From assembly GCF_000702605.1 (NCBI RefSeq), contig NZ_JNIR01000001.1, positions 424,501 through 488,500 on the forward strand: a stretch of DNA of 64,000 nucleotides, read 5' to 3'. The position numbers and the translations under genes were made by a program. Origin of the DNA: Exiguobacterium acetylicum DSM 20416. GTDB lineage: Bacteria > Bacillota > Bacilli > Exiguobacteriales > Exiguobacteriaceae. Shown here one piece after another: positions 28,323 to 33,529 of this stretch. Below the pieces are notes generated by a model, which was given only the letters and a program-made list of their open reading frames with translations, made no database searches and had not been told where the DNA came from. Within the stretch, counting starts at the first letter, position 1. Every line of letters starts with the position of its first letter.

Positions 28323-29270
28323 TTAAAGTACTTTGACTTTAGGCAAGATGCGTCGTAATTCAAGGAACGGTGTCTTGTCATGCGTACTGATATCAGCAGG
28401 ATCATATTGTTGTAGGAAATCGATGACCTTTTTCGTGATCGGTGTTGGCGTTGATGCACCTGATGTGACACCAACTTGCGTGACACCTTCGAGCCAAGTT
28501 AAGTCAAGTTCCGTTAGATCACCAATCCGATGCGCTGGAGTGCCAGCGATATCGAAGGATACTTGTGCCAAACGGTTCGAGTTGTTCGAACGCGGGTCCC
28601 CGACGACGATGACGAGATCGCAGTCTCCTGCTTGATCAGCCACCGCTTCTTGCCGGACTTGTGTTGCGTTACAGATTTCATTGTGTACTTCTACATGCGG
28701 ATACTTTTTACGAACGTGTTCCATCAAAGCTTGGACATCCCATTGGCTCATCGTCGTCTGATTCGTGACGATGATTTTTTTGTGGGCAAGCTGAGGCGGA
28801 AGTTCATCAATATCTTCGACTTTTTCGATGAGGTGCACATGCTCTGGTGCTACACCGACTGCACCTTCAGGTTCCGGATGTCCATGTTTGCCGACGTAGA
28901 TGACTTCATAATCATCCGCGACGACTTGTCGAATCAAATCGTGCGTACGCGTCACGTCAGGACATGTTGCATCGACGACGTGTAAGTTCTTCTCAGCAGC
29001 ACGCGCATAAACTGCAGGTGAAATGCCGTGTGCAGTAAAGATGACAGTGCCCTCTTGAATCGTCTCTAACGCTTCGAGGCGATCGGGACCATCGACAGTG
29101 ATGACACCCATATTTTCGAACTCACGTGTCACGTGAGCATTGTGGACGATCATCCCTAAAATATGGATCGGACGTGGCAAGTCTTTATTCAATGCCGCTT
29201 GTTGTGCAAGTTTCATTGCATCGACGACACCGTAACAATAGCCGCGGGGGCTGATTTTTTTTACTAGCAT
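28323..29270 (-). CDS. ispH: 4-hydroxy-3-methylbut-2-enyl diphosphate reductase
   Basis: The last enzyme of the MEP isoprenoid pathway, a 315-residue iron-sulfur protein. The three cluster cysteines are in [15 protein letters not shown] and EICNATQ; the conserved histidines in HNAHVTREF and FTAHGIS are also present. ispG, the preceding enzyme in the pathway, is also in this window (46869-47978). It is inverted relative to its neighbours. Confidence 0.97.
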
Positions 29271-29369
29271 AGTTATGGATTCTCCCTTTGCGAAAAAGAA
29301 TGATTAGTTAGAGTGTACCATTGATTGAAGCTGAATGAAAATAGAGGAGTCTGTTTCATCCACAGAACA

Positions 29370-29378
29370 TGCTATACT
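29370..29378 (+). promoter_or_regulatory. extended -10 promoter candidate for sensor kinase gene
   Basis: TGCTATACT is an extended -10 element, 38 bases before the kinase start. There is no convincing -35 box at the right distance. Confidence 0.5.
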
Positions 29379-29415: not shown

Positions 29416-31179
29416 ATGGAGTCTAAGAAAATGATGCGGTCGTATTTTTTTCAAATCACCGCCGTCTTATTCATCCTGATTTGTCTTGTCATTTCAGCGC
29501 TTGCCTTCACTGCTGACCGGGTCACGATTTCTCGGGTCGAGCAACAAACAGAGAAACAGAGCGAAAAGAGTGTCGAGGTCTCAGGAAATGCGATTCGCGA
29601 CAATATTGGGAATCTGCACGAAGAGATCATGAGCTTGCAGTTGAATGTCAAAAACCCCGAAAAGCTGAAACAAAAAATTGAAGAATCAAATCTATTAGAC
29701 ATTGATACAGGATTTAAGAGTTTCTTCTACTTTGATCGACAGACGAAGCAAATCACTTGGTTCTCAAGTGAGGATCGACGCATAGAAAACAGTACGATCC
29801 TAAAAGATGATGAATTCTTGCAAACGTTGACGAGTACGGATTTTCATATGAGTAAGTTGTATACGATGGAATCAGACGCCGTTTCCTATATGTTCGTTCC
29901 GGTTCGAGACGGCAATGAACGTGTCGGTGTCTTTGGTGGTGGGTTAAGTGTCATGAACTCGATCGTCTTTCGGAATTCACTTGAATCATTTGACGATCAA
30001 ACGATTGCCTACCTGTTCAATAGTAAAAAAGAATTGTTAGCCACATCCAGTAATCTGGTACCGGATGAAGAACGCTTATTATCGAAAAGTGTCATTGAAC
30101 GTGCTTTTGAATCGGTAGAGCCTTCTGAGATTTTTAGTACGAACCAAGATATGTATTACTTTGCGAAAGATTTGAAGGTGACGGATTGGAAGATTCTCGT
30201 TCGAACGCCACGAAGCGTCTTTTATGAACCAGTCTACACGACACGGCAACAGTATTTGATCATCGCTGCCTTGACGCTCGTCCTCAGTCTGATCGTCGGC
30301 TATTTGATGTCAAAACAATTGACGGCGCCGATGCTTGAACTTGTGAATAAGATTGAGAAAAGCACCTCACCCAAACCAATCGTTCTCGAGCGTGCCGGAT
30401 CAAACGAAGTCAAGACACTCGTTGCTGCCTATAACGAGTACGCTCAACGGATGGAAAATGCGCGCCTTGAGCAGTTGAGTCAACAACAAACGATGTTACA
30501 TCAAGAAAAACTAGCCTCACTGGGTCAACTAGCAGCTGGAATTGCCCACGAAATCCGTAATCCACTAACGCCAGTCAAGATGACGTTACAGTTGTTAGCA
30601 GCAGAAAAGGATCGTGATCCAGAAATGTTGATTCTCGCCTTATCGGAACTGGATCGAGCAAATGGCATGATTCAAACGATGCTTGATTTATCGAAAGGCG
30701 AAAACAATGCGCTTCAAAAAACGACGATCGATATGAATGATTTAATGAAGAAGCTGACATATATCTTAGAAGCGGAAGCTCATCATTACGAAGCGGACTG
30801 CAAAATTTATACACCGTCCTTCATGCCAAAGATTTATGCATCGGAAGAGGGGATTTTGCAGATTTTAGCAAACTGTGTCCGTAATGCTCTTCAAGCTGTC
30901 GCGTTTAAAGGACCGGATGGAATCTGTCATCTGCATGTCCACGTTTATCCAGAAGAAGTCGTATTCATTGTTCAGGATAATGGGGTAGGGATGGATGGAA
31001 ATCAAATTGATCATGTCGGTCAAGCGTTTAAGACATCAAAAGTCGATGGCAATGGACTTGGACTCTTCATGTCGAAACAAATCGTTCGTGATCATAAAGG
31101 AAAGATGATTTTTGATAGTAAGCCAGGGGTCGGTACGACGATTCAAGTCCACTTACCTCGAAAGGAGCAAACGGAATGA
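29416..31179 (+). CDS. orphan sensor histidine kinase with extracellular dCACHE-type domain
   Basis: A 587-residue kinase. Transmembrane segments lie at about residues 12-32 and 275-295 and flank an extracellular domain of about 240 residues that looks like a dCACHE sensor. Then come a HAMP-like linker, a HisKA domain with the phospho-acceptor His in GIAHEIRNPLTPVK, and an HATPase domain (NCVRNALQAV, DNGVGM, GNGLGLFMSKQIV). No response regulator gene is near. It is coupled by an ATGA overlap to a membrane-anchored sugar-binding-type protein that may be its ligand sensor. Ligand and target are unknown. ATG 29416 follows AAGGGAGG. Confidence 0.9.
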   Translation: MESKKMMRSYFFQITAVLFILICLVISALAFTADRVTISRVEQQTEKQSEKSVEVSGNAIRDNIGNLHEEIMSLQLNVKNPEKLKQKIEESNLLDIDTGFKSFFYFDRQTKQITWFSSEDRRIENSTILKDDEFLQTLTSTDFHMSKLYTMESDAVSYMFVPVRDGNERVGVFGGGLSVMNSIVFRNSLESFDDQTIAYLFNSKKELLATSSNLVPDEERLLSKSVIERAFESVEPSEIFSTNQDMYYFAKDLKVTDWKILVRTPRSVFYEPVYTTRQQYLIIAALTLVLSLIVGYLMSKQLTAPMLELVNKIEKSTSPKPIVLERAGSNEVKTLVAAYNEYAQRMENARLEQLSQQQTMLHQEKLASLGQLAAGIAHEIRNPLTPVKMTLQLLAAEKDRDPEMLILALSELDRANGMIQTMLDLSKGENNALQKTTIDMNDLMKKLTYILEAEAHHYEADCKIYTPSFMPKIYASEEGILQILANCVRNALQAVAFKGPDGICHLHVHVYPEEVVFIVQDNGVGMDGNQIDHVGQAFKTSKVDGNGLGLFMSKQIVRDHKGKMIFDSKPGVGTTIQVHLPRKEQTE

Positions 31180-32129
31180 AATTCAATAAGGCCTGGTTAT
31201 TCGTCCTAATTGTTTGGATTTCATCCGTTTTGTTCATTTCCAATTTATTCGTCAATCCGGATCCGAGTCCACGTCGTCATCTCATCGGCTTCACGATCGT
31301 CAATGATAAACATGAATTTGCGCAACGACTTGTCGATGCGTTCAAGACACAAGCCAAACTGAATAAATATGAAGCAGTCGTCGCGACGTCTCATAACTCA
31401 CGCATCAATGAACGTGAGCAGATTCAAGAGTTCATTCGAATGAAGGTGGATGCAATCTTCGTGACGACGCTGGATGATGTCTATATCGCTAGTACGTTAG
31501 AAGAGGCAGCCCGTGCTGGGATTCCGGTCTTCGCGATCGATCGATTGATTCGCTCCGAAGCAGTCGTCAGTTCGATCACCTCGAATAACCAATTGATCGG
31601 GGAACAACTTGCCTCGTTCATCAAACATGAACGCATCAAGCAGACGGGACGAGCCACCGCTAATATCATTGAAGTCGCAGGTACGGCAAACGTCAATACG
31701 ACGAATGAACGACACCGGGGATTTTTGACTGGTCTTGAGCGTGAGGCGGAACTTCAAATCGTCGAATCCGTGAATGGAGATTACGATCCCGTCACTTCAG
31801 AACAGGTCATGACGCAGGTGATTGAGTCGGGAATTCCGTTTGATGCCGTCTATTGTCACAATGACGATATCGCGCTAGGTGTCCTCGAAGCATTGAAAAA
31901 AGCAGGCATCAAAGGAAAAATAATTGTCGGCATAGACGGGAATCGTGCTATATTAGAAGCTGTTGACATGAAATCGATGGATGCGACGGTCGTCCAGAGT
32001 GCTGATGAGATGATGAAAGTCGCCTTCAGTGCATTGAAGCTTCATACGAAAAACAAAAAGATTCCAACTCGTTTTTATACGTACTCCTATCTGTATGACG
32101 GTAGTAGACCCATAACCATGTTGAACTAA
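31176..32129 (+). CDS. membrane-anchored periplasmic-binding-type sugar sensor
   Basis: A 317-residue protein of the LacI/RbsB-like (peripla_BP_4) family. An uncleaved N-terminal transmembrane segment (about residues 6-24) carries no lipobox cysteine. Binding-protein features are IGFTIVNDKHEFAQRLVDAF, VDAIFVTTLDDV, CHNDDIALGVLEAL and IVGIDGN. No ABC permease or ATPase lies nearby, so it is not a transport component. Translational coupling with the kinase suggests that it presents a ligand to the kinase sensor domain; that is inference. Confidence 0.88.
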   Translation: MKFNKAWLFVLIVWISSVLFISNLFVNPDPSPRRHLIGFTIVNDKHEFAQRLVDAFKTQAKLNKYEAVVATSHNSRINEREQIQEFIRMKVDAIFVTTLDDVYIASTLEEAARAGIPVFAIDRLIRSEAVVSSITSNNQLIGEQLASFIKHERIKQTGRATANIIEVAGTANVNTTNERHRGFLTGLEREAELQIVESVNGDYDPVTSEQVMTQVIESGIPFDAVYCHNDDIALGVLEALKKAGIKGKIIVGIDGNRAILEAVDMKSMDATVVQSADEMMKVAFSALKLHTKNKKIPTRFYTYSYLYDGSRPITMLN

Positions 32130-32176: not shown

Positions 32177-33529
32177 ATGAATGGATTCAGCCATTATCAA
32201 TTACACCCGTTCGTCATCGAAGCACTCGATGACGCCCGCATCACAAAACCGACCGACATTCAGTCGCGGATCATCCCAGCTGCAGTAAAGGGACGCGATA
32301 TCATCGGTCAATCACAAACCGGCACAGGAAAAACGTTATCGTTCCTTCTTCCGATCGTTCAAAACGTCGATCCAAAGCTTCAAGAATTACAAGCAATCAT
32401 CGTTGCTCCAACGCGCGAACTTGCTTGGCAAATTCATGAAGAACTGAAATCGTTACTCGTGAAGGAACCAGACTTCATCAAGACGAGTCTCATTACAGGT
32501 GGAATGGATCGCGAACGTCAAATCGGTCGTGTAAAAGTCTCACCCCAAATCGTCATCGGAACACCGGGACGTATTCTAGATTTATTCAAGGAACAAGCAT
32601 TGAAGCCACATTTCGTGAAGCATTATATCATCGATGAAGCGGATCAAATGCTCGACATGGGCTTCTTGCCAGAAGTTGACCGGATTGCGCAAGCTCTTCC
32701 AGAACAGCTTCAGATGATGGTCTTCTCAGCAACGATTCCTGAGAAATTGCAACCGTTCTTGAAAAAATATATGAATAACCCGCGTTATGCGCATGTGGAT
32801 CCAAAACAACAGACAGCGAAGAAAATCGTTCACCATACGATTCCGGTCAAGCACCGTGAGCGCTCGCAATTGACGTTGAAAGTCGCGAAAGCGCTGAATC
32901 CGTATATCTGTTTGATCTTTACGAATACAAAAGCAGAAGCAATCGAAGTCGAAGCTTTGTTCTTAGAAGCAGGATTGAACGTTGGTTCTCTTCACGGAGA
33001 CCTTCCGGCTCGTCGTCGTAAGCAAGCCATCAAAGAAATCAACGATGCGAAGTATCAATACGTCATCGTGACGGATCTTGCTGCACGCGGAATTGATATT
33101 TCAGGTGTCTCGCACGTCATCAACCATGGTATTCCAAAAGATTTAGACTTCTACGTCCACCGTGTAGGTCGGACAGGTCGTGTCGATCAAGATGGATTGG
33201 CGTACACATTGTTTGAAGATCACGAGAACGGTATGATCAATCGCTTAGAGGACCGTGGCATTCAATTCACGAACGTCGATGTCAAAGGTAGTCAAATCGT
33301 CGAAGTCAAAGAACGTCGCCGTGCGAAGCCGCACATGAAGACTGCCGTCTCGAAGACAGCGCATAGTCGCCTTTCGGGTGAAGCAGCAAAAGCGAAAAAA
33401 CGTGTTAAACCAGGTTATAAGAAGAAACATCAATACAAGCTGAAAGAAACAGCAAAACGTGAACGCATCAAAGAACAACGTGGTGTCGGTCGCGCGCAAC
33501 GTAAAGAAAACGCACGCAAATCAAAATAA
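32177..33529 (+). CDS. cshB: DEAD-box RNA helicase CshB
   Basis: A 450-residue ATP-dependent RNA helicase. It shows the Q region, motif I (SQTGTGKT), motif II (DEAD in IIDEADQMLD), motif III (SAT) and motif VI (HRVGRTGR). A Lys/Arg-rich tail (about 385-450) binds RNA. Its place before nfo and after ispH matches B. subtilis cshB (cold-shock helicase). Confidence 0.93.
   Translation: MNGFSHYQLHPFVIEALDDARITKPTDIQSRIIPAAVKGRDIIGQSQTGTGKTLSFLLPIVQNVDPKLQELQAIIVAPTRELAWQIHEELKSLLVKEPDFIKTSLITGGMDRERQIGRVKVSPQIVIGTPGRILDLFKEQALKPHFVKHYIIDEADQMLDMGFLPEVDRIAQALPEQLQMMVFSATIPEKLQPFLKKYMNNPRYAHVDPKQQTAKKIVHHTIPVKHRERSQLTLKVAKALNPYICLIFTNTKAEAIEVEALFLEAGLNVGSLHGDLPARRRKQAIKEINDAKYQYVIVTDLAARGIDISGVSHVINHGIPKDLDFYVHRVGRTGRVDQDGLAYTLFEDHENGMINRLEDRGIQFTNVDVKGSQIVEVKERRRAKPHMKTAVSKTAHSRLSGEAAKAKKRVKPGYKKKHQYKLKETAKRERIKEQRGVGRAQRKENARKSK

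Follow-up and report, generated by a model that had tools for sequence, protein, structure and literature searches.

An orphan sensor histidine kinase of Exiguobacterium acetylicum is co-encoded with a membrane-anchored RbsB-type binding protein (SBP), and we propose that the two proteins form a surface co-receptor of the LuxP-LuxQ kind that feeds the Spo0 phosphorelay in bacteria that do not form spores. We judge this proposal to be about evenly poised between right and wrong. It starts from what was observed directly in the window (the whole stretch of 64,000 nucleotides analysed here) and in the rest of the genome, namely the co-encoding, the architecture and the conservation of the pair, the lack of any regulator or transporter gene beside it, and the presence of Spo0F-, Spo0B- and Spo0A-type genes.

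The kinase gene (587 aa) occupies 29416..31179 on the + strand, with its ATG at 29416 and its stop codon at 31177-31179. The SBP gene (317 aa) follows at 31176..32129 on the same strand, with its ATG at 31176 and its stop codon at 32127-32129, so that the start and stop codons overlap in an ATGA at 31176..31179, the four-base overlap already remarked on in the preliminary description. This arrangement allows translational coupling and does not imply any particular stoichiometry; the equal production suggested there is a possibility. Each of the two genes has its own ribosome-binding site. The left neighbour, ispH (28323..29270, − strand), is divergent, and the right neighbour is the DEAD-box helicase gene cshB (32177..33529, + strand). 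No transporter genes adjoin the pair, either in the window or at any other locus read. Upstream of the kinase, the hexamer TATACT and the TG preceding it were invariant across the ten species compared. We regard them as part of a putative extended -10 promoter element of the kinase-SBP unit (TGCTATACT, 29370..29378, + strand), which was missed by a consensus promoter scan because it has no good -35. A second invariant block in the gap between ispH and the kinase, 29312-29326 (AGTGTACCATTGAT; TGGTACACT on the reverse strand), is probably the divergent ispH promoter.

The kinase has an extracellular domain of about 240 residues between two membrane helices, TM1 and TM2, followed by HisKA (30520..30705) and HATPase_c (30844..31164). 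Pfam identified both catalytic domains, as well as Peripla_BP_4 in the SBP, with every score far above its cut-off. The model of the sensor domain (residues ~36-276; 29521..30243, + strand), built from 13 orthologues, has a mean pLDDT of 80 and a dCache fold. Foldseek and VIA matched it to solved dCache domains, with VIA Z-scores of 14-17 overall and, for the sensor of KinD, a Z-score of 15.0 and an rmsd of 3.1 over 191 residues. Amino-acid and amine receptors are among the fold matches; LuxQ is not among the 50 listed, which excludes nothing. The phospho-acceptor, His378 (codon 30547-30549), lies within an HEIRNPLT H-box, which sets this kinase apart from all others among the 24 HisKA kinases on the chromosome. 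With the NCBIfam KinD model, whose cut-off is 775 bits, the kinase scored 110. The top model names by score were those of AtoS/ZraS-type kinases, yet these scores also fell far below cut-off; moreover, none of the 28 receiver-domain places in the genome holds a frame longer than 315 aa and there is therefore no NtrC-type regulator, and this assignment was rejected.

The SBP carries one N-terminal hydrophobic helix (residues 6-24; 31191..31247, + strand), placed from the model, followed by the Peripla_BP_4 ligand-binding domain (31284..32060, + strand). Its sole cysteine is C227, so the protein has no lipobox, and no aligned SBP orthologue has a cysteine in the N-terminal helix. We infer that the helix is an uncleaved anchor, and the characterisation of the partner as an RbsB-like protein held by a membrane helix holds good. 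The model of the SBP shows a ribose-binding-protein fold (pLDDT 88), and its sequence is nearest to ribose and galactofuranose binders. Where PDB 3L6U aligns with the window SBP, its residues match the E. sibiricum orthologue letter for letter, starting at residue 31, and they are 81% identical to the window SBP over 281 residues. Since an orthologue has thus already been crystallised, the ligand can be screened directly. The deposition names 3L6U as an ABC-transporter component, which is probably misleading, because transporter genes are absent beside the orthologues in every locus read.

Alignment with 2IOY showed that the sugar clamp of the C-lobe and hinge is kept in the SBP. Residues D122, R123, R179, Y203, N229, D254 and Q274 correspond to D89, R90, R141, F164/165, N190, D215 and Q235 of the ribose-binding protein, and we take the pocket residues to have the roles that they have in RbsB. 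The N-lobe of the pocket is altered relative to the ribose-binding protein (S9 to V42, N13 to H46, F16 to A49 and N64 to T97), and these four residues are invariant in the family alignment. Because the clamp is kept and the N-lobe is changed, the ligand is likely to be a sugar or sugar-like solute other than plain ribose, as far as the sequence can indicate.

The kinase and SBP genes are adjacent in all 38 Exiguobacteriaceae genomes (Exiguobacterium, 19/19; sister genus, 19/19), which answers the question of whether related genomes have the same pair. In the 32 loci read, ispH and cshB flank the pair without exception, and the 4-nt overlap is kept in 29; of the others, one has a gap of 2 nt, one an overlap of 14 nt and one, genome G007, a split kinase. 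In that genome (L039 near 7155) a frameshift at about codon 290 splits the kinase and leaves the SBP intact, and it is possibly a sequencing error. The dN/dS values of 0.02-0.06 indicate purifying selection, with similar constraint on the kinase and the SBP. A search of 398 Bacilli genomes with the sensor-domain model (E 1e-10) found nothing in the 360 outside the family. The model matches the genome of L129 at 2.7e-31; L129 is a contig of a metagenome-assembled genome labelled Alkalihalobacillus macyae, which is of Bacillaceae type going by the label. In a genome-contig scan, this contig showed the ispH-kinase-SBP-cshB block with the same ATGA overlap (L129:456-5840), the kinase being 28% and the SBP 35% identical to those of the window. 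Outside the family, a search with the SBP sequence of L129 yielded no more than weaker RbsB-like proteins, the best with E 1.3e-43. Since the block occurs throughout both genera and in L129 as well, it is an ancient fixed block. The preliminary description had called the pair an insertion between ispH and cshB: the position is correct in all 32 loci, and a recent insertion event is ruled out.

No regulator gene adjoins the kinase in the window genome or at any other locus read. Across the whole genome we counted 28 places with a receiver domain and 35 with a HATPase domain, and the receiver domain nearest to the pair is ~67 kb away, in line with the earlier suggestion of an orphan kinase whose output partner lies elsewhere. 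No locus read, L129 included, has a regulator gene right after the pair or an ABC transporter paired with the SBP; loss of a regulator through local rearrangement was also rejected, there being no receiver near the pair at any of them. The genome has two single-domain receivers other than chemotaxis proteins. The first, of 125 aa, at C1:354848, overlaps a SHELRTPL kinase of its own. The second (C1:2412414-2412818) lies between fba and a ywjG-like gene, as in the B. subtilis order ywjG-spo0F-fbaA, and has Spo0F as its best match (92 bits; the highest-scoring natural receiver other than Spo0F reaches 63). A relative is present in 39/39 genomes searched, and the Spo0A effector domain in 11/11. 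Between rpmA and obg we found a divergent Spo0B-like protein of 160 aa with an RHEWLN motif (C1:1759940-1760422, L316/L317), which is recognised by SPOB_a (31.3 bits, cut-off 28.1) and fails the SPOB_ab model. The genome of L129 contains Spo0A, Spo0B and Spo0F. For E. sibiricum, an earlier study reported spo0A, spo0B, kinA and kinB, along with a weak homologue of Spo0F (PMC2615787), and the Spo0A-positive non-spore-formers listed in PMC3533761 include two strains of Exiguobacterium. The relay genes were thus already known, and what is new is their proposed link to the kinase-SBP pair.

Several other signalling genes came to light in these searches. Nine further kinases without a DNA-binding partner (L217, L226, L227, L228, L229, L230, L231, L232 and L233) have a near-identical SHELRTPLSSIYGFTELM helix in common. 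In one case, L217, the kinase overlaps a single-domain receiver of 125 aa, an arrangement suggestive of many kinases acting on one receiver. The orphan receiver at L216:1043-1771 carries a SpoIIE-type phosphatase domain that is truncated, and L216:3285-3653, a further 1.5 kb along, encodes a stand-alone Hpt protein next to a CheV-like gene.

The specificity residues of B. subtilis KinA-E are TxGFQL/I, and those of Spo0F are QGILEVD (Davidson et al., PMC6136694). The window kinase has TPMTQL in place of the KinA-E signature, and for this reason we do not class it as a KinA-E member; it probably works like a kinase of that type without formal membership. Across Exiguobacterium the hexamer is TPMTQL or TPMAQL (TPITQM in genome G005) and the Spo0F residues are mostly EGILQLD; in the sister genus they are mostly TPITQM and QGIMQVD. 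The genome of L129 has TPGFQL, which agrees with the KinA-E signature, together with QGILEVD. Spo0B of the window genome has QLSYAI in place of QLGNSL, and Spo0A has NEMLQH in place of NELLEY, a pattern suggestive of a joint shift of the kinase, Spo0F, Spo0B and Spo0A at their interface. The pair and its relay would then be a natural case of relay partners apparently shifting their interface together. G-F-L is likewise kept at three positions by other orphan kinases in the genome (SSGFEL).

At L223:1148-2960 (C1:523147 to about 524960), outside the window, spo0A of this strain is broken by an IS3-type element that contains two transposase frames and has 14-nt terminal inverted repeats. The receiver fragment, whose best match is Spo0A, runs into the element, on the far side of which the effector domain continues. 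The gene is intact in all three Exiguobacterium relatives in which it was read. The last step of the relay has therefore probably been lost in this strain. The kinase-SBP pair is intact in the same genome, which implies either that the loss of spo0A is recent or that the pair has another output.

For the contact between SBP and kinase, the ligand, the phosphotransfer and the target genes, we infer the following scheme. Outside the cell the tethered SBP would catch a solute that is a sugar or resembles one, and its open or closed state would act on the dCache domain of the co-translated kinase, by analogy with the action of LuxP on LuxQ. This state would alter the autophosphorylation of His378, from which the phosphoryl group would pass to the orphan Spo0F-like single-domain regulator and then, through the Spo0B-like phosphotransferase, to Spo0A, and the output would be the non-sporulation regulon of Spo0A. 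The Spo0F/Spo0B/Spo0A relay, encoded elsewhere in the genome, is thus the probable output. This scheme is favoured by the conserved linkage and overlap of the pair, its purifying selection, the dCache fold with the KinD sensor among its matches, the RbsB fold with its retained clamp residues, the unique H-box, the lack of a frame long enough for an NtrC-type partner, the relay genes present in the genome, the agreement of TPGFQL with QGILEVD in L129, and the LuxP-LuxQ precedent. Against it stand the Exiguobacterium hexamers that depart from TxGFQL, the G-F-L kept by the SSGFEL kinases, and the broken spo0A beside an intact pair.

The same departure from the KinA-E pattern would also fit a correct co-receptor whose output is not Spo0F. 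The kinase might then phosphorylate Spo0A directly, as clostridial orphan kinases do (PMC3533761; PMC11210211), or act on another orphan receiver such as the one at C1:354848. The divergence of Spo0B, recognised by SPOB_a only, fits such a bypass. However, the Spo0F-like and Spo0B-like genes are both kept in synteny, the 125-aa receiver already has an overlapping kinase, and the L129 kinase fits Spo0F, and we therefore consider a non-Spo0F output rather unlikely.

Two further alternatives concern the sensor. The kinase and the SBP might be neighbours without a joint function, the dCache domain sensing a small ligand itself, as such domains usually do (amino-acid and amine receptors are among its matches), and the SBP serving a distant ABC transporter, as the deposition of 3L6U would have it, or acting as a decoy. 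Gene order and overlap kept over two genera and the distant homologue L129, similar constraint on both genes, a membrane anchor in place of a lipobox and the absence of transporter genes beside the pair make this improbable. The pair might also be a Gram-positive quorum receptor of the LuxPQ type, with AI-2 or another signal as its ligand instead of a nutrient sugar. The two folds are the same as those of LuxP and LuxQ (PMC8534201), and the N-lobe of the pocket is unlike that of ribose-binding protein. Still, all C-lobe and hinge residues that clamp the sugar in ribose-binding proteins are kept and the nearest sequences are ribose and galactofuranose binders, which leaves a quorum role improbable too.

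Returning to the Spo0 co-receptor, we advance a broader reading more tentatively, at somewhat short of an even chance. The co-translated, membrane-tethered SBP may serve the Spo0 phosphorelay as a dedicated input for external nutrients, one that was ancestral to a branch of Bacilli, persists in the L129 lineage with Spo0F, Spo0B and Spo0A, and, in a family that lost sporulation, has been retained together with a co-evolved relay. To our knowledge, no SBP-gated Spo0 kinase pair was known before. If true, this reading would explain what an asporogenous phosphorelay listens to. The signals of Spo0 kinases are mostly unknown, and the putative sensor described here brings its own binding protein. 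The pair is thus a concrete candidate input for the Spo0A/Spo0F/Spo0B set kept by asporogenous Exiguobacteria, as noted for E. sibiricum (PMC2615787, PMC3533761).

The pair resembles several known systems in part. With RbsB/CUT2 binding proteins (PDB 3L6U, 2IOY) the SBP shares the Peripla_BP_4 fold and most sugar-clamp residues, but it has no lipobox and an altered N-lobe pocket, and every locus read has ispH and cshB on either side of the pair, with no permease or ATPase genes in the operon. The XylFII-LytS-YesN system also co-encodes a sugar-binding protein and a kinase that sense outside sugar (cited in PMC11113362). The window kinase is of another class (HisKA with dCache), and at the loci read we found neither an AraC-type regulator in the same operon nor a transporter nearby. 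In Vibrio, the double-PDC kinase LuxQ reads AI-2 through the binding protein LuxP (PMC8534201). The likeness is that a type-I binding protein is encoded next to a kinase and that the kinase senses through a double-PDC (dCache) domain, which the model and fold matches support here. In Exiguobacterium, by contrast, the SBP is membrane-anchored with a ribose-like pocket, the kinase is not a hybrid, and we propose contact between the two and signalling through a Spo0-type relay instead of LuxU-LuxO. Bacillus KinD has the same TM-dCache-HisKA-HATPase layout as the window kinase, and the title of a work cited as reference 53 in PMC11210211 indicates that the action of this dCache orphan kinase on Spo0A needs the lipoprotein Med. 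From KinA-E as a group the window kinase differs by its TPMTQL residues where they have TxGFQL, by an RbsB-type partner dedicated to it in the operon, and by its non-sporulating host. It shares with them the orphan state, with no adjoining regulator, the HEIRNPLT-type HisKA domain, and a genome that contains Spo0F-like, Spo0B-like (by SPOB_a only) and Spo0A (interrupted here) partners.
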